Of a DNA stretch of 64,000 nt, positions 6,240-16,068 are shown in pieces; position 1 is the stretch's first letter; every line of letters begins with the position of its first letter. Position numbers and translations under genes: made by a program. Source of the DNA: Microcella humidisoli (GTDB lineage: Bacteria > Actinomycetota > Actinomycetes > Actinomycetales > Microbacteriaceae); assembly GCF_024362325.1 (NCBI RefSeq), contig NZ_CP101497.1:1798001-1862000 (forward strand), read 5' to 3'. The notes below the pieces were generated by a model. It was given only the letters and a program-made list of their open reading frames with translations. It did no database searches and was not told the origin of the DNA.

Positions 6240-7379
6240 GTGAGCCTGTTCACCGCTGAAGAGCGCGGCGGCACGATCGACGACGCGCACGATCCCGCCG
6301 TCGCCGACGCGCGCGTGCGCGGCCGCCGCGTCGGCTGGCTGCTGCTCGCCCTGACGCTGTTCGGGGTCTTCGGGCTGGCCGTGCTGCCCTCGCCCTACGT
6401 CATCGAGCGTCCGGGTCCCGTGTTCGACACCCTCGGTACGGTGACGGTCGACGGTGACGAGGTGCCGCTCATCGAGATCCCGACCGAGCCGACCTACGAC
6501 ACCGAGGGCTCGCTGAGCCTGCTCACCGTCAACGTCTACGGCAACCGCGATCAGCCGCCCTCGTGGTTCGAGGTCATCCGAGCCTGGCTCGATCCGAGCC
6601 AGTCGGTCGTGCCCGTCGAGGCGGTGTTCCCGCCCGGGCTCAGCACGGAAGACCGCCGCGAGCAGAGTCGCATCGACATGGAGAACTCGCAGCAGGAGGC
6701 GGTCGCGGCGGCGCTGCGTGCCATCGGCGAGCCGTACGAGAGCCAGTTGCGCGTCGTCGAGACGCTCGAGGAGAGCCCCGCCGAGGGAATCCTGCGCGGC
6801 GACGACATCATCACCGCGGTCGCGGGCGAGCCCATTCGGGATGTCACGGCGCTGCGCGCCGCGATCGCCGCCAACGGCATCACGCAGCCGGTGTCGATCG
6901 ACATCCTGCGCGCGGGCTCGGAGCGCACCCTCGAGGTCACGCCGGTGCTGAGCGAGGGCGACGAGCCCGTCCCCGTGATCGGCGTGCTCATCGCGGGCGA
7001 GTACGTGTTCCCCTTCGATGTGAACATCGAGCTCGAGAACGTCGGCGGCCCGAGCGCGGGCATGATGTTCGCGCTCGGCATCATCGACAAGCTCACCCCC
7101 GACTCGCTCGCGGGCGGTGCGGAGGTGGCCGGCACCGGCACGATCGGCGCCGATGGCACGGTCGGCCCGATCGGCGGCATCGTGCAGAAGATGCATGGCG
7201 CGGTCGGCGCGGGCGCCGACTGGTTCCTCGCCCCGATCGAGAACTGCGGTGAGGTCGTCGGCAATGTGCCGGGAGACCTCGAGGTGTTCGCGGTGGCGAC
7301 GCTCAACGACGCCATCGGGGTTCTGCAGGCGATCGCCGACGACGAGGGAATCGACGAGCTCGCGCGCTGCGAACGCTAG
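6240..7379 (+). CDS. PDZ domain / Lon-type (S16) serine protease, membrane-anchored
   Basis: 379 aa, YlbL/Rv3194c type. One N-terminal TM helix (about 32-50, VGWLLLALTLFGVFGLAVL) places the rest outside the membrane; a PDZ domain at about 170-240 (SPAEGILRGDDI) is followed by a Lon S16 catalytic domain with the Ser-Lys dyad S272 (GGPSAGMM) and K317 (GGIVQKMHG), 45 residues apart as in Lon. There is no AAA+ module, so it acts without ATP. The preferred start is GTG 6240, preceded by GAGGAG; the frame is open back to 6180. A TAGGCT -10 at 6154 would give a leader of about 75 nt. Confidence 0.88.
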   Translation: MSLFTAEERGGTIDDAHDPAVADARVRGRRVGWLLLALTLFGVFGLAVLPSPYVIERPGPVFDTLGTVTVDGDEVPLIEIPTEPTYDTEGSLSLLTVNVYGNRDQPPSWFEVIRAWLDPSQSVVPVEAVFPPGLSTEDRREQSRIDMENSQQEAVAAALRAIGEPYESQLRVVETLEESPAEGILRGDDIITAVAGEPIRDVTALRAAIAANGITQPVSIDILRAGSERTLEVTPVLSEGDEPVPVIGVLIAGEYVFPFDVNIELENVGGPSAGMMFALGIIDKLTPDSLAGGAEVAGTGTIGADGTVGPIGGIVQKMHGAVGAGADWFLAPIENCGEVVGNVPGDLEVFAVATLNDAIGVLQAIADDEGIDELARCER

Positions 7380-7424
7380 CGGCGAACATCCCCCCACCCC
7401 GGCCACTTCCAAGACTCGCGCCAG

Positions 7425-7430
7425 TAGTCT
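7425..7430 (+). promoter_or_regulatory. -10 box upstream of the UPF0182 gene
   Basis: TAGTCT lies about 36 nt upstream of the GTG at 7466; a short leader with GGGAG-like ribosome binding sequence follows. Confidence 0.4.
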
Positions 7431-7465
7431 GAAGCGGTACGCCCGCCGACTCTGGGAGCAGCCTC

Positions 7466-10360
7466 GTGACGTCCACCGCAACGCCGCCCGCCAACCGTTC
7501 CCGCGCGACTCTCGCGATCAGTGCCGCCATCGTCGGCGCGCTGGTCGTGCTGTTCTTCGTCTTCGCGAACGTGTACACCGACATCCTCTGGTTCGACCAG
7601 CTCGGGTTCCTCAACGTTCTGACGACGCAGTGGTTCGCGACCGGCGGCATGTTCCTCGTCGGGTTCGTCGGCATGTTCCTGCCCGTGTGGGCGAGCCTGC
7701 AGATCGCGTACCGCGCGCGGCCGGTGTACGCCAAGCTCAACTCGCAGCTCGATCGCTACCAGGAGGTCGTCGAGCCCCTGCGCCGCGTCGCCATGCTCGG
7801 CATCCCCGCCGTGCTCGGCCTCTTCGCGGGCGTCACGGCCGCGGGCCAGTGGCAGATGGTGCTGCAGTGGTGGAACCGCACGCCGTTCGGCCAGGTCGAC
7901 CCGCAGTTCGGGCTCGACATCTCGTTCTTCGTCTACGAGCTGCCGTTCTGGCGCGGCGTCATCGCGTTCGCATCCGCCGTCGTGCTGCTCGCCGGCATCG
8001 CCGCCGTGGCCACGAGCTACCTGTACGGAGCCATCAGCGTCAACGGTCGCGAGATCCGCATCTCGCGCACCGCCCGCATCCAGCTCGCTCTCACGGCCGC
8101 GATCTACATCGCCCTGCAGGGCGTCAGCATCTGGTTCGACCAGTACGCGACCGTCATCCAGCCGAGCGACGGCTTCCTCGCCATCGGTGCCGGCTTCACC
8201 GAGGTGAACTCGACCATTCCGAGCCGCGGCATTCTCGCCGGCATCGCGCTGCTCGTCGCCGCGCTCTTCGTCATCACGGCCGTCATCGGGCGCTGGCGCC
8301 TGCCGATCGTCGGCACGGCGCTGCTCCTCGTCAGCGGTCTGCTCATCGGCAGCGTCTACCCGTGGATCGTGCAGCGGTTCCAGGTCGAGCCCAACGCGCG
8401 TGAGTTCGAGGCGCCGTTCATCGAGCGCAACATCGAGGCCACGCGCGACGCCTACAACGTGTCGGGCATCGAAGAGATCTCGTACGACGCCGTCACCGAC
8501 GCCGAGCAGGGCGCGCTGCGGGAGGACGCCGAGACCACGGCGAACATCCGCATCATCGACCCGGCGCTCGTGACCGAGGCCTTCGCCCAGCTCGAGCAGT
8601 TCCGGCAGTACTACCAGTTCCCCGAGTTCCTCGACGTCGACCGCTACGAGATCGACGGTCGCACGCAAGACACCGTCATCTCGCTGCGCGAGCTCAACCC
8701 CGACGGCCAGACGTCGCAGAACTGGTACAACAACACGATCGTCTTCACCCACGGCTACGGCGTGGTGGCCGCCTACGGCAACCAGCGCACCGACGACGGC
8801 CGCCCGCAGTTCCTCGAGGGCGGGATTCCCGCGAGCGGTTCGCTCACGAGCGAGCTGGGCGAGTACGAGCCGCGCGTGTACTTCGGCGAGTTCTCGCCGA
8901 CCTACTCGATCGTCGGCGGCGGTGACAACCTCGAGCTCGACTTCCCCTCGGAGGGCAACGAGGATCAGGCCGGCAACGCCACCTACACCTTCACGGGTGA
9001 CGGCGGACCGACGCTCGACAACGTGTTCAAGCGGCTGCTCTACTCGATCAAGTTTCAGTCGGAGCAGATCTTCCTCTCGGAGGCCGTCACCGACGACTCG
9101 CAGATCCTCTACGAGCGCAACCCGGTCGAGCGCGTGCAGAAGGCGGCGCCGTACCTGACGCTTGACTCCGACCCGTATCCGGCGATCGTCGACGGCCGCA
9201 TCGTCTGGATCGTCGATGGCTACACGACCTCGGCGAGCTACCCCTACTCGACGACCGTGGCGCTCAGCGAGGCGATCGCCGACACCTACACGCCGGCTCC
9301 CGCCTTCCCGCTCGACCAGATCAACTACATCCGCAACTCGGTCAAGGCGACGGTCGACGCGTACGACGGCTCCGTCACGCTCTACGCGTGGGACACCGAG
9401 GACCCGATCCTGCAGACGTGGCAGAAGGTGTTCCCGAACACCCTCGTCGACGCAGACGAGATGAGCGAGGCGCTGCTGTCGCACGTGCGCTACCCGGCTG
9501 ACCTCTTCAAGGTTCAGCGCAACATCCTCGGCGCGTACCACGTGACCGATCCGGGTTCGTTCTTCTCGACCGATGACGAGTGGCGCACGCCGAACGACCC
9601 GACGTCGCTCGCCGCGGCCCCGACCCTGCAGCCGCCCTACTACCTGACGATGCAGGTGCCGGGGGCGGATGCGCCGGGCTTCACGCTGTACTCCACCTTC
9701 ATTCCGCGTACCGCGAGCGAGAACGAGCGCAACGTGCTCACGGGCTATCTCGCGGCGAACGCCGACCCCGGTGAGGACTACGGCAAGCTCACGCTGCTCA
9801 CGCTGCCCTCGCAGACGATTCCCGGCCCGGGCCAGGTGCAGAACCAGTTCAACTCCGACCCGATCGTGGCGAATGACCTGGCCCTGCTGCAGCGCGGTGA
9901 GACCGAGGTGCTGCGCGGCAATCTGCTGACCCTGCCGATCGGCGGCGGCTTCCTCTACGTGCAGCCTGTCTACGTGCAGTCGACGGGTGAGACGAGCTTC
10001 CCGCTGCTGCGCAAGGTGCTCGTGGCCTTCGGCGACTCGATCGCCTTCGAAGACACGCTCGACGAAGCGCTCGACTCGCTGTTCGGCGGCGACTCGGGTG
10101 CTGCGGCGGGCGACGGCGACGTCGATCCGGTCGATCCCACGGATCCGACCGACCCGACCGACCCGACGGAGCCGACCGACCCGACCGACCCCGGCACGGG
10201 CGTCGAGATCTCGGCCGAGCTCGCGCAGGCCCTGCAGGATGCCCGTCAGGCGCTGCTCGATCGCGAGGCGGCCTACGCGGCCAACGACCTCGTCGGCGCG
10301 GCTGAGGCCGATGAGCGCCTGCAGGAGGCGATCGAGCGCGCACTCGCGCTGAGCGACTAG
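7466..10360 (+). CDS. UPF0182 family large membrane protein
   Basis: 964 aa, the family of mycobacterial Rv3193c; function unknown. The first ~300 residues hold about seven TM helices (the first at ~15-37, AISAAIVGALVVLFFVFANV), followed by a ~600-aa soluble region with the conserved YQFPEFLDVDRY and NNTIVFTHGYGVVAAYGNQ patches. Near residues 890-912 is an acidic Asp-Pro-Thr repeat (DPTDPTDPTDPTEPTD) ahead of a helical Ala/Glu-rich tail; such repeats suit a flexible extracytoplasmic or wall-spanning linker. GTG start with GGGAGCA upstream. Lies next to the PDZ/Lon protease as in other actinobacteria; a functional link between the two is plausible but unproven. Confidence 0.9.
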   Translation: MTSTATPPANRSRATLAISAAIVGALVVLFFVFANVYTDILWFDQLGFLNVLTTQWFATGGMFLVGFVGMFLPVWASLQIAYRARPVYAKLNSQLDRYQEVVEPLRRVAMLGIPAVLGLFAGVTAAGQWQMVLQWWNRTPFGQVDPQFGLDISFFVYELPFWRGVIAFASAVVLLAGIAAVATSYLYGAISVNGREIRISRTARIQLALTAAIYIALQGVSIWFDQYATVIQPSDGFLAIGAGFTEVNSTIPSRGILAGIALLVAALFVITAVIGRWRLPIVGTALLLVSGLLIGSVYPWIVQRFQVEPNAREFEAPFIERNIEATRDAYNVSGIEEISYDAVTDAEQGALREDAETTANIRIIDPALVTEAFAQLEQFRQYYQFPEFLDVDRYEIDGRTQDTVISLRELNPDGQTSQNWYNNTIVFTHGYGVVAAYGNQRTDDGRPQFLEGGIPASGSLTSELGEYEPRVYFGEFSPTYSIVGGGDNLELDFPSEGNEDQAGNATYTFTGDGGPTLDNVFKRLLYSIKFQSEQIFLSEAVTDDSQILYERNPVERVQKAAPYLTLDSDPYPAIVDGRIVWIVDGYTTSASYPYSTTVALSEAIADTYTPAPAFPLDQINYIRNSVKATVDAYDGSVTLYAWDTEDPILQTWQKVFPNTLVDADEMSEALLSHVRYPADLFKVQRNILGAYHVTDPGSFFSTDDEWRTPNDPTSLAAAPTLQPPYYLTMQVPGADAPGFTLYSTFIPRTASENERNVLTGYLAANADPGEDYGKLTLLTLPSQTIPGPGQVQNQFNSDPIVANDLALLQRGETEVLRGNLLTLPIGGGFLYVQPVYVQSTGETSFPLLRKVLVAFGDSIAFEDTLDEALDSLFGGDSGAAAGDGDVDPVDPTDPTDPTDPTEPTDPTDPGTGVEISAELAQALQDARQALLDREAAYAANDLVGAAEADERLQEAIERALALSD

Positions 10361-10364
10361 CGCG

Positions 10365-11249
10365 ATGGGGCAGTCCGAGACTCCCGAGTGGGCCCGGCTC
10401 AACCGGGCCCACTGGGATTCGACGGTGCCCGTGCACGTCGCGAGCGAGTTCTACGACCTCGCACCGTTGCGGGCGGGGGAGGGGCGCCTGTATCCCGTCG
10501 AGGAAGCCGAGCTGCCGCGCATCGCGCCGAACGGCTGGGCGGGGCTGCGGGTCCTGCACCTGCAGTGCCACTTCGGGGCCGACACGCTCGTGCTCGCCCA
10601 GCGCGGGGCCGAGGTCGTGGGGCTCGACTTCTCGATGCCGGCCGTGAAGCAGGCGCGAGCCCTCGCCACCGAGCTCGGCCTGGACGACCGCAGCCGATTC
10701 GTGTGCGCCGACCTCTACGATGCCCGGCACGCCCTGCCCGAGCCCGAGGGATTCGACGTCGTCTACACGACGTGGGGCACCATCGGCTGGCTGCCCGACA
10801 TCGTCGAGTGGGCGCGCATCGTCTCCTGGTTCCTCAAGCCCGGCGGTCGGTTCTATTTCGCCGACGGGCATCCCAGCGCATTCGTGTTCGACGACCCCCA
10901 GCCCGGGGCTCCGACGGCGCTGCTCGACGGCGGCCCTGCCGCGTTCCCGACGCCGCGCTTCTCCTACTTCGAGGCGCGCCCCCTCGATCTCGACGAGGCG
11001 GGCGATTACGCCGATCCGGATGCGGAGCTCGAGCACTCGCGCACCGTCGAGTGGATGCATCCGCTCGGCCAGACGCTCACGGCGCTCGTCGATGCGGGCC
11101 TCGCTCTCGACTTCGTGCACGAGCACGACGCCGTGCCGTGGCAGATGTTCTCGGTGCTCGAGCCGCGCGGCGACGGTCTGTGGGCGTGGCCCGGCACGGC
11201 CTGGCTGCCGCTCGGCATGAGCCTCGGGGCCACTCGTCGCGCCGAGTGA
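10365..11249 (+). CDS. Class I SAM-dependent methyltransferase
   Basis: 294 aa. Motif I is VLHLQCHFGADTL followed by the acidic end of strand 2 in GAEVVGLDFS, the SAM ribose-binding position; the central VVYTTWGTIGWLPDI matches motif IV/post-IV of small-molecule methyltransferases. The substrate cannot be inferred. It begins 4 nt after the UPF0182 stop, so it is probably in the same transcript. Confidence 0.85.
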   Translation: MGQSETPEWARLNRAHWDSTVPVHVASEFYDLAPLRAGEGRLYPVEEAELPRIAPNGWAGLRVLHLQCHFGADTLVLAQRGAEVVGLDFSMPAVKQARALATELGLDDRSRFVCADLYDARHALPEPEGFDVVYTTWGTIGWLPDIVEWARIVSWFLKPGGRFYFADGHPSAFVFDDPQPGAPTALLDGGPAAFPTPRFSYFEARPLDLDEAGDYADPDAELEHSRTVEWMHPLGQTLTALVDAGLALDFVHEHDAVPWQMFSVLEPRGDGLWAWPGTAWLPLGMSLGATRRAE

Positions 11250-11343: not shown

Positions 11344-11375
11344 GGTGCGCGAAGGGGGGCTTGGAAGGAAGCCTC

Positions 11376-12761
11376 GTGTCGGCTCTGACTGCCGCTGCAC
11401 TGCACATCGCTCGTCCTTTCATGTCGGCCTGGGCCGCGTGGCGCGACGACGAACTGTCGTCGATGCCGCGACCGAGCGGGCTGCCGCGCGCGGTCGCCGA
11501 CGGACCGTCGGCCGACCGCATCCTGCTCATCGGATCGGGCCCGGCGGTGGGCTGGGGGGTCGCTTCGCACGACCTGGCTCTTCCCGGCGCACTCGCTCGT
11601 GCACTCCGGGCCACGACGGGCCGCGGAGCGATCGTCGACGTGATCGCCGACCCGCAGATGACCGCGGCCAACCTCGCGGGCGTGCTCGTGGGCACGCGCC
11701 TCGACCGCTACGACGCCGTCGTCACGACGGTGGGCACGAACGACGCGCTGCACTTCACGACCCCGCTCGAGTGGCGACGGCGGATCGCGCGGGCTCTCGA
11801 CCTGTGGAGCTCGCGTGCGCGCGGCGGCACGACGCTGCTCATGGTGGGCATCATCCCCCTGCGGCTGCTGCCGACCTTCACGGGCGTGGCCGCTCGCTCG
11901 GTCGACCGGCTCTCGCTCGTGCTGAACCGCGTGACCGACGAGATCGTCGAGCAGCACCCCACGGTCCGCACGACCCTGTTGCCCGCACCCGCCGGCGGGG
12001 CCTGCGACGCCCTCGGCCGCTTCACCCCCGAGGGGTACGAGTTCTGGGCGGCGCAGCTCGCCGCCGAGCTCGTGGAGCACCTCGATGAGCTTGCGGGAGA
12101 CCTCGATCGCACCGCCGAGATCGCTGAGCGCATGACGACGGGCGTCGACGATGCCGACCGCATCGCCGAACTGCTGAGCGACGACGCGACGAGCCTCGAG
12201 CGCATCGTCACGATCGCCGCCGCGGCCTTCCATACCCCGACTGCGCTCGTGACGGTGCTCGGCCCCGACACGCAGTGGCACGTCTCGCGGTTCGGCATCG
12301 ATCTCGAGTCGCTGCCCATCGAGCAGTCGTTCTGCGCAGTCGCGGTGCGCACCGATGACGGCATGGTCGTGCCCGATGCGACGCACGACCCCCGTTTCGC
12401 CCGCAATCCTCTCGTGACGGGCGCGGCCCAGGTGCGCTACTACGTGGGTGTGCCGATCGAAGACCCCCAAGGGCGCCGCATCGGCGCGCTCTGCGTCGTC
12501 GACACCAAGCCGCGCAACGTCACGACGGATGCCGACCTGAGCATGCTGCGGAGCCTCGCCGAGAAGGTGCAGCGCATCGTCTGGGCGAGTGTCGAGCGCG
12601 CTCAGCGCACCGCGCGCGGCGAGGAGCCGCCGCACTCGCGGGTGCTGCCCGAGCACGTCGACGTGGGCGGGCGCGTCGAGACGCTGCCGGGCAACGCGAG
12701 AGTGCAGGTGGCTGCCGTTCCGCGGTATCGCCCCGCCACGCTCGTCGCCGCTGTCGGCTGA
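11376..12761 (+). CDS. SGNH-fold domain fused to a GAF domain; SGNH catalytic residues not conserved
   Basis: 461 aa from GTG 11376 (GGAAGGA 6 nt upstream; a TTG at 11361 overlaps that RBS). Residues ~48-235 read as an SGNH/GDSL hydrolase fold: block I ILLIGSGPAVGWG, block III TVGTND (120-123), and a block V-like DALGRFTPEGYEFWA (211-225). The block I Asp-Ser is replaced by Ser-Gly (54-55) and the block V His by Thr217, so classical esterase chemistry is unlikely. Residues ~264-405 form a GAF domain (EQSFCAVAV, VVPDATHDPRF, YYVGVPI, GALCVVD) like those N-terminal to sensor kinases and cyclases. No TM or output domain is seen. Probably a cytoplasmic sensor or binding protein. Confidence 0.75.
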   Translation: MSALTAAALHIARPFMSAWAAWRDDELSSMPRPSGLPRAVADGPSADRILLIGSGPAVGWGVASHDLALPGALARALRATTGRGAIVDVIADPQMTAANLAGVLVGTRLDRYDAVVTTVGTNDALHFTTPLEWRRRIARALDLWSSRARGGTTLLMVGIIPLRLLPTFTGVAARSVDRLSLVLNRVTDEIVEQHPTVRTTLLPAPAGGACDALGRFTPEGYEFWAAQLAAELVEHLDELAGDLDRTAEIAERMTTGVDDADRIAELLSDDATSLERIVTIAAAAFHTPTALVTVLGPDTQWHVSRFGIDLESLPIEQSFCAVAVRTDDGMVVPDATHDPRFARNPLVTGAAQVRYYVGVPIEDPQGRRIGALCVVDTKPRNVTTDADLSMLRSLAEKVQRIVWASVERAQRTARGEEPPHSRVLPEHVDVGGRVETLPGNARVQVAAVPRYRPATLVAAVG

Positions 12762-12838: not shown

Positions 12839-12915
12839 CGCGGGGTGGAGCAGCTCGGTAGCTCGCTGGGCTCATAACCCAGAGGTCGTAGGTTCAAATC
12901 CTGCCCCCGCAACCA
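12839..12915 (+). tRNA. Initiator tRNA-fMet (CAT anticodon)
   Basis: 77 nt cloverleaf with CCA encoded. The anticodon loop reads CTCATAA. Two initiator hallmarks are present: the unpaired C1/A72 at the top of the acceptor stem (5' CGCGGGG, 3' CCCCGCA then A and CCA) and three consecutive G-C pairs in the anticodon stem (CTGGG/CCCAG). T arm GTAGGTTCAAATCCTGC. It is therefore the start-codon tRNA, not an elongator Met tRNA. Confidence 0.97.
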
Positions 12916-13126: not shown

Positions 13127-13161
13127 GGTGCCCCGAGCCATTCGGGTTGGCTCAGGGCACC
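13127..13161 (-). terminator. Hairpin terminator after the heliorhodopsin gene
   Basis: 14-bp stem with one mismatch (GGTGCCCCGAGCCA paired with TGGCTCAGGGCACC), 7-nt loop, 47 nt downstream of the heliorhodopsin stop on the minus strand. Confidence 0.6.
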
Positions 13162-13207
13162 GACTCCCCCTTTGAGGAGCCGGTGCCGATCGCCAGTGGG
13201 CCGCGGA

Positions 13208-14011
13208 TCAGCTGGTGAGCGCCGGGATGATGGCGCCCGAGAACACCTGCCACGCGAGCGCGGTCTTCGCGACGAGGCTCAGCGTGATGTAGCTGCGCTC
13301 GCCCTGCAGGTAGCTCTTCCACTTGCCGACCTGCTTGTACTGCAGCCACTGGTTGATGGCGAAGGTGTTGAAGAACACGAAGAGCGAGATGACGATGCCG
13401 ACGACGAACTCGGGCGGCGCCGCTTCGCTCTCGCTGCCGGGGCGCAGGAAGTAGATGAGGATCAGGATCCAGGGCACGATGCCGACCATCGAGCCGAAGA
13501 TGAACGGCAGCAGGCCGCCCGAGCCCGGCTGCTCGTACTTCTCCTGCAGGGCGCCGAACAGGATCATCGCGGCGTTGACCGCGAAGATCGAGAACAGCGC
13601 GGCGATGTCGGTGACGCCGTTGATCGCAAGAATGAGCCAGATCATGATCGACGAGCTCAGCGAGTACTCCGTCCAGCGGAAGTAGTTGCGGTTCTGCAGC
13701 AGGCCGTTCTTGTAGCGGCCGAAGAACCACGGGCTCGAGATCAGGAAGTGGAAGAACGCGCTGAGGGCGAGGAAGGCGACGACGCCGATGCCGATGTTGA
13801 CCTCGAAGAGCGTGACGCGCTCGGGCGGGATCGGCACGCCGGGAGGGCCGGAGAGGTAGTCGGCGGTGACAGCGAACAGCACCTGGGTGCTGAGCATCGA
13901 CAGCACGACCGCGAAGCCGATGGCCTGCACGAGGTGCAGGCTGCCCGCGACGATGTTGTAGACGCGCAGGCGATCGATCTGCTGCTCGGGGGTGTAGATC
14001 TTCTTGGCCAT
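13208..14011 (-). CDS. Heliorhodopsin
   Basis: 267 aa with seven TM segments. Family marks are all present: the retinal Schiff-base lysine K249 in TM7 (SLVAKTALAWQ), the TM3 motif R112-W-T-E115-Y-S with E115 as counterion, S245 near the lysine, and the two histidines H26 and H88 of the hydrophilic pocket. E115, S245, K249 and H88 keep the spacing of E107, S237, K241 and H80 in heliorhodopsin 48C12. Other conserved patches are GALQEKYE, GSMVGIVPW and NQWLQYKQVGKW. Heliorhodopsins bind all-trans retinal with the N-terminus inside the cell; a photosensory or enzyme-regulating role is suspected, not ion pumping. ATG 14011 has AAGGAG upstream. Monocistronic, divergent from the DUF998 gene; no carotenoid or retinal synthesis gene is in the window. 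Confidence 0.95.
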   Translation of the reverse strand: MAKKIYTPEQQIDRLRVYNIVAGSLHLVQAIGFAVVLSMLSTQVLFAVTADYLSGPPGVPIPPERVTLFEVNIGIGVVAFLALSAFFHFLISSPWFFGRYKNGLLQNRNYFRWTEYSLSSSIMIWLILAINGVTDIAALFSIFAVNAAMILFGALQEKYEQPGSGGLLPFIFGSMVGIVPWILILIYFLRPGSESEAAPPEFVVGIVISLFVFFNTFAINQWLQYKQVGKWKSYLQGERSYITLSLVAKTALAWQVFSGAIIPALTS

Positions 14012-14051
14012 GTAGGGCTCCTTCGGGGGATGCGCTCCGTCGCGCATGGCG

Positions 14052-14084: not shown

Positions 14085-14705
14085 GTGCAGAGCCCCCCTC
14101 GTCTCGTCCGCCGGCCCGCGATCGTCTCGGCGGCCCTCGCACCCGTCTTCTTCATCGGTGGCACGCTCGTGGCCGAGGCGCTCTGGCCCGGGTTTGACCC
14201 GGTCACGCAGACCATCAGCGAGCTGGCGGCGGGGGATGCCCCCACGCGGGTGTTCATGACGATCATGTTCGCCCTCACCGGCGTCAGCCACCTCGTCACG
14301 AGCGTGTACGCGGTCGGCATCGGGCGCCCCGGTCGCATCGCGCTCGGGCTCGCCGGGCTTGCGACGATCGGGGTCGCGGCCTTCCCCCTGCCGACGATCG
14401 CCTCGAGCTCGACGGCGCACACGCTCGCGGCGCTGGCGGGGTTCGTGCTGCTCGCTGTGTGGCCCGTTCTGGGCATGCGGAGCTCGCGCGACTACCCCTG
14501 GCTCATCCGCCCCGGCGGCGCCGTGCTCGGCACCCTCCTGCTCGGCGGGCTGTGCCTGTGGTTCTTGAGCGTGTGGACCTCGCCCGACAATTCCCTGCTC
14601 GGCGTGAGCGAGCGCGCGGCCGCGAACCTTGAGTCGCTCTGGCCGCTCGTCATCGTCGCGGCGCTCGCCCTGCGGCAGCGCCGCGCGCGGGTGCCGCAGC
14701 CCTAG
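14085..14705 (+). CDS. DUF998 family integral membrane protein
   Basis: 206 aa with about six TM helices and the family pattern FDPVTQTISELAAGDAP near the N-terminus (DUF998, PF06197-like). Function unknown. GTG 14085 is chosen over the in-frame ATG 14046 because a -10-like TACGGT lies 6 nt upstream and no RBS is present. Divergent from the heliorhodopsin gene with only 73 bp between; convergent with the ribokinase gene, sharing CTAG. Confidence 0.82.
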   Translation: MQSPPRLVRRPAIVSAALAPVFFIGGTLVAEALWPGFDPVTQTISELAAGDAPTRVFMTIMFALTGVSHLVTSVYAVGIGRPGRIALGLAGLATIGVAAFPLPTIASSSTAHTLAALAGFVLLAVWPVLGMRSSRDYPWLIRPGGAVLGTLLLGGLCLWFLSVWTSPDNSLLGVSERAAANLESLWPLVIVAALALRQRRARVPQP

Positions 14706-15595
14706 TCGCGCGGGGGCTGGGCGCCGAGCCACTGCACGGCCGCGGCACCCGCGGCGACGCCCCGCTCGACGGCCGTGCGCAGTTCGGCGCTCGCGCCGCT
14801 CTCCGCGAGCTCCGCCGCGACCGCGCCCGCGAAGGCGTCTCCGGCCCCCGTCGTGTCGACCACGGTGACGCGCGGCGCCGGCAGATGGCCGCTCGCGCCC
14901 GGCGCGGCGAAGACCGCGCCGTCGCCGCCGAGCGTGATGACGACGCTGCGGCAGCGATCGAGCAACGCCCCGGCCGCTGCGGCGGCCTCGTCGGGCGTGC
15001 CGATCGTGAGGCCGGTCAGGTCGTGCGCCTCGGCCTCGTTGACGATGAGCGGATCGCAGAGCGCGAGCAGAGCATCCGGAACCTCACGGCTGGGGGAGAG
15101 GTTGAGCACCGTTCGCCCCCCGAGCTCGTCGATCGTCTCGGCGGCCGTGAGAACCGCCGCGAGGGGGATCTCGAGCTGGGCCAGCAGCACCGTTCTGCGC
15201 CCGGCGATCGCGCGGATGCCCGCTTCGACCTCGTGCGCGTTCACGCGGGCGTTGGCCCCGGCCGCCACGACGATCGTGTTCTCGCCGTCGCGTGACACGG
15301 TGATGAGCGCGATGCCCGTGGGGGCGTCGTCGACGACCGCGACGCTCGAGACATCGACGCCGCCAGCGCCGAGGGCGTCGAGCATCTGGCGGCCGTTGCC
15401 GTCATCGCCCACTGCCCCGAGGAACACCGGCATCGCTCCCGACCGGGCGGCCGCGAGCGCCTGGTTCGCGCCCTTGCCGCCGGTCGCGATCACGAGCTCG
15501 TCGCCGAGCAGCGTCTCGCCCGGCAGGGGGTGCCGGTCGACCAGCACGGTGTAGTCGGTGTTGGCCGAGCCGAGAACGATGAGCGAGGCGGTCAT
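14702..15595 (-). CDS. rbsK: Ribokinase (PfkB family sugar kinase)
   Basis: 297 aa. ATP-dependent sugar kinase: N-terminal GSANTDYTV, substrate site GGKGANQALAAARSG, and the C-terminal catalytic motif VDTTGAGDAFAGA with the base Asp. LLAQLEIP and NLSPSREVPDALL match ribokinases better than fructokinases, so phosphorylation of D-ribose to ribose-5-phosphate is the best guess; other PfkB substrates remain possible because no transporter gene is adjacent. The ATG overlaps the stop of the upstream DoxX-like gene, making a two-gene operon. Confidence 0.82.
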   Translation of the reverse strand: MTASLIVLGSANTDYTVLVDRHPLPGETLLGDELVIATGGKGANQALAAARSGAMPVFLGAVGDDGNGRQMLDALGAGGVDVSSVAVVDDAPTGIALITVSRDGENTIVVAAGANARVNAHEVEAGIRAIAGRRTVLLAQLEIPLAAVLTAAETIDELGGRTVLNLSPSREVPDALLALCDPLIVNEAEAHDLTGLTIGTPDEAAAAAGALLDRCRSVVITLGGDGAVFAAPGASGHLPAPRVTVVDTTGAGDAFAGAVAAELAESGASAELRTAVERGVAAGAAAVQWLGAQPPRD

Positions 15596-16068
15596 GGCTC
15601 CATCGTGGCAGAGCGCTCGCCGACAGCGGAGCGTGCGGCCCGGTGCTCGCGCCACGCCCGCCAGGCGCCCGTCGACCACAGCGCCCACACCACGAGAACC
15701 GGTTGGAACAGCAGCCGGATGCCCCGCGCGAGGTCGGTGTCGAGGCCGAAGCCGTCGCGGCCCTCGGTGAACTGCGCGATGTTGCCGGGGAAGATCGCGA
15801 GGAAGAACAGGGCCGTGGCCCACCCGGTCCACACCCGCCAGCGCCCGCGCGCCAGGAGGAGCGCGATCCCGAGCGCGATCTCAGCGACGCCCGAACCGAG
15901 CACGATGAGGTCGGGCTCGATCGGCAGCCATGGCGGCACCTGGGCCAGGAACTCCTCGCGCCCGAAGGTGAGGTGGCCGGTGCCCGCGAAGACCAGGGCC
16001 GCGCCGAGCAGCCAGCGGGCGATCCGCTGCGGCCAACTCGTTCCGCGAGCGCGCGTGTCGGTTGTCAT
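15592..16068 (-). CDS. DoxX-like integral membrane protein
   Basis: 158 aa, four predicted TM helices (WLLGAALVFAGTGHLTF, the GSGVAEIALGIALLLARG segment, TGWATALFFLAIFPGNIAQF, LLFQPVLVVWALW). The GTGHLTF and VAEIALGIAL patches match DoxX/DUF4267-like small membrane proteins, whose function is mostly unknown (DoxX is linked to redox and oxidative-stress complexes). Translationally coupled to ribokinase. A CATACT box 6 nt before the ATG suggests a leaderless transcript. Confidence 0.75.
   Translation of the reverse strand: MTTDTRARGTSWPQRIARWLLGAALVFAGTGHLTFGREEFLAQVPPWLPIEPDLIVLGSGVAEIALGIALLLARGRWRVWTGWATALFFLAIFPGNIAQFTEGRDGFGLDTDLARGIRLLFQPVLVVWALWSTGAWRAWREHRAARSAVGERSATMEP

Follow-up and report, generated by a model that had tools for sequence, protein, structure and literature searches.

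The role of heliorhodopsins is largely open in general, and the gene at 13208-14011 (minus strand) raises the question of what such a protein does in its cell, and with which partner. It lies in the window, a stretch of 64,000 nucleotides (G000:C1:1798001-1862000) from a Microcella-type genome assembled as a single contig of 2.65 Mb. The first-pass annotation had proposed a heliorhodopsin (HeR) here, within a Microbacteriaceae core region; the core region is supported, and the gene is borne out by profile searches far beyond chance. Its product (267 aa from an ATG start) matches Pfam PF18761 with 315 bits (E 3.8e-94, cut-off 26.7), the NCBIfam equivalog NF038020 with 343.5 bits (E 6.6e-103, cut-off 100) and, over its whole length, the PDB sequence of 48C12 with 289 bits (E 3.5e-85). 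It is an ordinary heliorhodopsin and adds one more member to an established kind of protein. A ribosome-binding site read from the sequence, AAGGAG (14018..14023, minus), precedes the ATG by six bases. Just 3' of the stop codon stands a 14-bp hairpin (13156..13187, minus), a terminator-like stem with no clear T run; the 71 bases at 13140-13210 fold with a z-score of -3.87, and none of 200 shuffles folded equally well. Despite not being called by the terminator scan, this hairpin fits the transcription of HeR on its own.

All the hallmarks claimed for the protein, K249, E115, S245, H88 and H26 with the RWTEYS and SLVAKTALAWQ motifs, are present. The Schiff-base lysine of TM7 sits in an SxxxK motif (S245, K249), the TM3 glutamate E115 provides the counterion, and the five residues are invariant in 110 of 110 aligned HeR loci (L001, L003-L111), a set that includes the window's own copy and some genes twice. 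The spacing had been given as equal to that of 48C12, which holds for H88, E115, S245 and K249 but fails for H26 and H88, 62 residues apart here and 57 in 48C12. The two proteins are alike in the tested retinal-site residues, in the spacing from H88 onwards and in their whole-length match, and differ in that the window HeR has its H26 and H88 further apart, by five residues, and sits alone behind an initiator tRNA. With loops set by eye, its cytoplasmic loops hold 13 Lys or Arg residues and its outside loops 2, a bias which indirectly supports the inverted topology, with the N-terminus inside. Positions Q148, Q213 and A240 of 48C12, together with GPPG, accompany a lambda-max above 550 nm in heliorhodopsins (PMC7807009); the window HeR has Q156, Q221 and A248 at the equivalent positions, and GPPG as well.

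Taking retinal, topology and the partner leads described below as one reading, we consider it quite probable that the window gene encodes a functional heliorhodopsin working as a slow photosensor rather than as a pump. Family, key residues, topology signal, retinal genes and the locus across the genus are what we observe; retinal binding, sensing, the lack of pumping and the partners are what we infer in this proposal. All-trans retinal would be bound through K249, with E115 as its counterion, in a seven-helix membrane protein with its N-terminus inside; the retinal would take up green-yellow light, and illumination would slowly change the cytoplasmic face of the protein, a change that would be relayed to a cytoplasmic or membrane partner.

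Regulation by heliorhodopsins has been published for glutamine synthetase and for an ABC transporter (PMC9529153, PMC11109279). The window HeR resembles the actinobacterial proteins concerned, AbHeR (glutamine synthetase) and OcHeR (ABC transporter), in belonging to the same family and in its positive ICL3 (PMC9529153, PMC11109279), and differs from them in standing beside neither a glutamine synthetase nor an ABC transporter gene in the part of the window that was read. It might still bind and regulate glutamine synthetase in trans, as AbHeR (IMCC26103) does, where K216, K217 and K220 of ICL3 matter (PMC9529153). When paired by a shared GER motif, the equivalents of K216 and K220 are kept (K226, K230), but those of K217, D223 and R226 are Q, S and Q (the residues being matched from the GER anchor instead of by aligning AbHeR), and glutamine synthetase is absent among the recurrent HeR neighbours that we identified. 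We regard regulation of this kind as unlikely here.

The same genome carries, outside the window, a second gene of the heliorhodopsin family (G000:C1:2573997-2574743, or L118:3998-4744; minus strand), in which the Schiff-base position of TM7 is a glycine. Lysine occupies this site in none of the 135 aligned rows of its relatives (some genes being present twice), and by its sequence the paralogue should be unable to form the usual retinal Schiff base. The TM7 lysine has been stated to be conserved across the heliorhodopsin family (PMC7807009), and our searches of open-licence papers in PubMed Central yielded no description of lysine-less heliorhodopsins. The predicted model of the paralogue nonetheless has the heliorhodopsin fold, including the beta hairpin of ECL1. 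A profile built from 63 lysine-less rows finds only heliorhodopsins among PDB sequences (6/6), and two scans found no viral relatives. W181 is kept in all 135 lysine-less rows, and N-G and VPWG are invariant in 63 of 63; TM7 is poorly conserved, and the F206 column is Ala in 87 of the 135, a small residue at a place where the pocket would sandwich retinal. The copy of this genome passes the Pfam cut-off (38.7 against 26.7) and falls below that of the NCBI equivalog (37.1 against 100). The latter is passed by 4 of the 10 lysine-less proteins tested (of 15), a warning for annotation. Some lysine-less proteins are named heliorhodopsin in databases.

Lysine-less genes were found in 19 of 249 family genomes (8 of 85 genera) and lysine-bearing HeRs in 38, the lysine having been inspected in 30 of these (L001, L003-L031) and the other eight assigned by score; six genomes hold both forms. 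Two genomes, G095 and G104, have by score second full-length, high-scoring heliorhodopsin copies. Second HeR copies are also reported in Aquiluna (PMC12422013). Within the genus, a sample of 26 genomes contains the lysine-less gene in 23 and HeR in 14, of which 12 were inspected and G644 and G658 assigned by score; every genome with HeR also has the lysine-less gene. The lysine-less gene stands alone in nine genomes, three of them 71-81% complete, and three have neither form, two of these being incomplete. The lysine column is readable in 21 of the 23 genus copies and is never Lys; of the other two, L226 is cut by a contig end and L217 was not framed. In a wider sample, 107 of 396 Actinomycetota genomes match the lysine-less profile, and the best 29 loci outside our own genome are all lysine-bearing, a reading that covers those 29 loci and so leaves room for the lysine-less form outside Microbacteriaceae. 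One further heliorhodopsin stands between an IS6 transposase and a recombinase on a 10.5-kb mobilizable plasmid of Lactococcus petauri (L238, NZ_CP141705.1).

We built a tree from 89 proteins, 57 of them lysine-bearing and 32 lysine-less. One branch separates the two sets, with support of 100/99 and in all 200 bootstrap trees; a quick tree in which the lysine-less rows were cut from 32 to 18 by removing the longest gives the same split. When the tree was rooted with Lactococcus and Chloroflexota HeRs, 12 of the lysine-less rows (100/100) fell inside the actinobacterial HeRs, with parent forks supported at 98/92, 98/92 and 94/82; this tree left out the long-branch lysine-less lineages, those with Arg at the site (G066, P0063) and the archaeal and viral HeRs. 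Given this nesting, the data are most simply read as a single loss of the lysine in an ordinary HeR, the exact place of the clade in the tree being unsure because of its long stem (2.19).

A protein that has lost its key residue may be merely a slowly decaying gene, and the substitution rates bear on this. Among eight HeR copies of the genus, the window's own excluded, dN/dS is 0.03-0.06 in 10 of 28 pairs (five close copies) and 0.10-0.23 in the remaining 18; these genes are under purifying selection. Lysine-less genes form 22 pairs with an identity of 65% or higher; dN/dS is 0.17-0.27 in the 12 of them that reach 79% and 0.36-0.59 in the 10 less similar ones. Three species pairs allow both genes to be compared, and in each the lysine-less value exceeds that of HeR (G652/G655, 0.193 against 0.038; G645/G235, 0.204 against 0.030; G640/G641, 0.229 against 0.120). 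These ratios, the long branches and the poorly conserved TM7 speak for decay. Against it stand the low values of the 12 closest pairs, the absence of internal stops from all 37 lysine-less matches in genus genomes, the invariance of W181, N-G and VPWG, and the presence of the gene in 23 of 26 genus genomes, nine of them with no HeR found. The lysine-less gene is constrained, less so than HeR, and we hold decay to be improbable.

For the window HeR to work with light the cell needs retinal, and the search for retinal-synthesis genes elsewhere in the genome that the first-pass annotation had suggested was successful. A blh gene (G000:C1:1099720-1100448; PF15461, 150.1 bits) directly adjoins a lycopene cyclase gene, crtY (PF05834, 169.2 bits), the two spanning 1099720-1102067 (locus L203). 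Retinal is thus probably made in the same cell through lycopene cyclase and Blh, judging from the last steps being encoded. A type-1 rhodopsin gene is also present (G000:C1:2107747-2108430), with DTE-like letters in TM3 as read by eye. In the family, blh occurs in 28 of the 249 genomes and type-1 rhodopsin in 65 (63 above cut-off); the HeR-bearing genus genome G235 gave no match to blh. Ordinary HeR, in 38 genomes, is accompanied by blh in 10 and by rhodopsin in 29. Of the 19 genomes with the lysine-less gene 13 have blh, compared with 15 of the 230 without it (by genus, 7/8 against 7/77), and 16 have type-1 rhodopsin, compared with 47 of the 230 (7/8 against 19/77); the genera in these counts lack independence, and incomplete genomes may explain some of the non-matches. 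This co-occurrence counts against a role of the lysine-less protein wholly separate from retinal or light biology. That the window HeR itself transports protons or ions under light seems very unlikely: the viral V2HeR3 transports protons (PMC9448325), so membership of the family does not alone exclude transport, but the full-length homologue 48C12 showed no pump or channel activity (PMC6951262), and the genome already has its rhodopsin with DTE-like TM3 letters.

To look for partners we turned to the neighbourhood. On the plus strand, convergent with HeR, lies the tRNA gene at 12839..12915 (ARAGORN anticodon CAU; Rfam tRNA, 62.3 bits). By eye it has a C1-A72 mismatch and a GGG/CCC anticodon stem, features that we take to mark an initiator tRNA-Met, so the earlier statement that HeR stands beside such a tRNA holds. 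Adjoining it, at 11361-12761, a GAF domain is encoded behind a weak SGNH/GDSL-like hydrolase match (below the Pfam cut-off), and further off a 1008-aa open frame (7376-10402, minus) runs opposite a 964-aa ORF (7466-10360) as its antisense, which high G+C probably explains. On the other side, divergent from HeR, is a gene for a DUF998 membrane protein (14085..14705, plus; PF06197, 86 bits; alternative start ATG 14046), followed by a ribokinase-like PfkB kinase (14702..15604, minus; PF00294, 205.8 bits; TIGR02152, 269.3 bits, below its cut-off of 299.65) and a DoxX-like membrane protein (15592..16068, minus; PF07681, 23.9 bits against a cut-off of 23.6). Read along the HeR strand the order is therefore DoxX-like, ribokinase-like, DUF998 (reversed) and HeR, then the initiator tRNA on the opposite strand. 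A divergent promoter region of 73 bp had been proposed between HeR and DUF998; the gap has this length if DUF998 starts at GTG 14085 and shrinks to 34 bp from ATG 14046, and a scan for sigma-70-type promoters around HeR returned zero promoter-like sites.

The same annotation had named DUF998 among conserved neighbours that might act as partners and proposed its synteny as a check. We searched for neighbours (tblastn, E 1e-5) at 80 named HeR loci, the best 80 of 254, some on short contigs: DUF998 was near HeR in 3, DoxX in 9 and ribokinase in 5. Ten loci of the genus type were read closely, the window excluded (L207, L208, L032-L034, L036, L039, L040, L058 and L060); they make nine distinct ones, L208 and L036 being counted as one because they seem to be a single contig. 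DoxX is on the HeR strand in seven of the nine, and DUF998 lies between ribokinase (RbsK) and HeR in three and on the far side in one (L033). The steadier neighbour of HeR within the genus is the same-strand DoxX-like gene, not DUF998. DUF998 is probably not the partner, and a functional partnership with it is hardly credible: it is the divergent neighbour in the window, L034, L039 and L207 (G235), but it was not found beside HeR in 77 of the 80 best-matching named loci (some contigs ending early), changes side in L033 and is missing from the RbsK-HeR interval in L032 and L036.

The DoxX-like gene in its turn is not tied to HeR strictly. In three further loci (L104, L100, L090), the HeRs of which are 65-71% identical, a DoxX-family ORF on the HeR strand begins 11-13 bp after the HeR gene. 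In G137, where a lysine-bearing HeR was not found, UPF0182, MTase, tRNA-Met, ribokinase and DoxX keep their order, and the tRNA lies 125 bp from the ribokinase match; with the neighbours in place and this short gap, HeR is simply absent there. In G074, another genome in which a lysine-bearing HeR was not found, DoxX alone was found within 9.5 kb (L205). Retained in both genomes, DoxX is independent of HeR. HeR also moves between loci, since two Microcella species have an 83% copy with no DoxX found within 16.8 kb (L058, L060). We considered ribokinase, which is near HeR and on its strand in the genus, yet it was not found in L040, where DoxX adjoins HeR, and we rejected it. A universal neighbour was likewise sought, and none appeared among the clusters identified: the recurrent neighbours, namely DUF1684, DoxX, TerC, M23 peptidase, MMPL and GNAT, are bound to lineages. 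DoxX-like proteins presumably correspond to COG4270. A fusion of glutaredoxin and COG4270 has been described among HeR-adjacent genes, and a role in oxidative-stress defence was proposed (PMC8612252). The ten groups of HeR neighbours listed in PMC11109279 include neither DoxX nor DUF1684.

The lysine-less gene has a recurrent setting of its own, and in this genome it is flanked by a CAU tRNA and a DUF1684 gene. In 19 of the 23 genus genomes it is followed, within the flanks seen, by a DUF1684 gene on the same strand, and in 20 of 23 a CAU tRNA lies at most 1.5 kb upstream. As for the other four, DUF1684 is about 1.8 kb off in G074, one gene lies at a contig end and two have none within 1.5 kb. 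In Pontimonas-type loci (L065-L068, L097) it is a lysine-bearing HeR that is followed, within about 10 bp, by a same-strand DUF1684 gene; L065 resembles the lysine-less loci in its upstream CAU tRNA too, and a further stretch beyond DUF1684 is conserved between L065 and L066-L068. Together with the lysine-less loci of the genus, these indicate one sort of locus that holds either version. Near the lysine-less genes of other genera there was no DUF1684 (10 loci, L123-L132, and 4 loci, L192-L195); what these loci share is limited to one stretch common to the g1 and g84 loci and two pairs that are distant or occur among few loci. A Cx7C motif is present in each of the 24 full-length DUF1684 proteins of these loci, and in 23 of them its two cysteines are the only ones (L065 being cut short); the DUF1684 model is moderate, with a pLDDT of 75.2, low near the cysteines. 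In Haloferax, a DUF1684 protein with Cx7C has been placed among the thiol-relay genes to which a regulator of oxidative stress binds (PMC9426492). On the strength of the gene order seen in two lineages, we hypothesize that HeR-family proteins act with DUF1684 in thiol stress. The best leads to a partner, still weak ones, are thiol or redox proteins: the DoxX-like protein at the HeR locus and DUF1684 at the lysine-less locus.

We tentatively propose, giving it somewhat less than an even chance, that the lysine was lost once in Microbacteriaceae and that the protein was kept as a non-light (or constitutive) sensor signalling to the same kind of DUF1684 partner. The lysine-less sister would then be a receptor that lacks retinal or is loaded non-covalently. 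A parallel exists in the opsin-related proteins (PMC4915679), which likewise have the seven-helix opsin fold, have lost the lysine and form a coherent clade, and in which a bulky retinal-site residue has become small (W178 to Ala or Gly there, the F206 column Ala here). They differ in that the lysine-less clade is type-3, of a family with inverted topology, and that no transducer gene was identified beside it; the main difference is that eight haloarchaea with opsin-related proteins and no canonical opsin are without crtY and brp (PMC4915679), whereas the lysine-less clade co-occurs with blh. We also asked whether the lysine-less proteins could themselves be type-1 opsin-related proteins, and rejected this, the 12-row sample nesting inside the heliorhodopsins and the profile retrieving only heliorhodopsins from the PDB.

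The lysine-less clade matters because it has no usual hold on retinal, is found in more genus genomes than HeR, and has a recurrent neighbour with a reported redox link. With a lysine-less version and a recurrent DUF1684 neighbour, the question of the HeR partner becomes testable by comparing the versions, and if the proposal is true nature would have set up an experiment with and without light by placing the two versions at one kind of locus. If the scaffold does serve as a non-light sensor, heliorhodopsin would be a receptor of general use, with the sensing of light as one of its forms.
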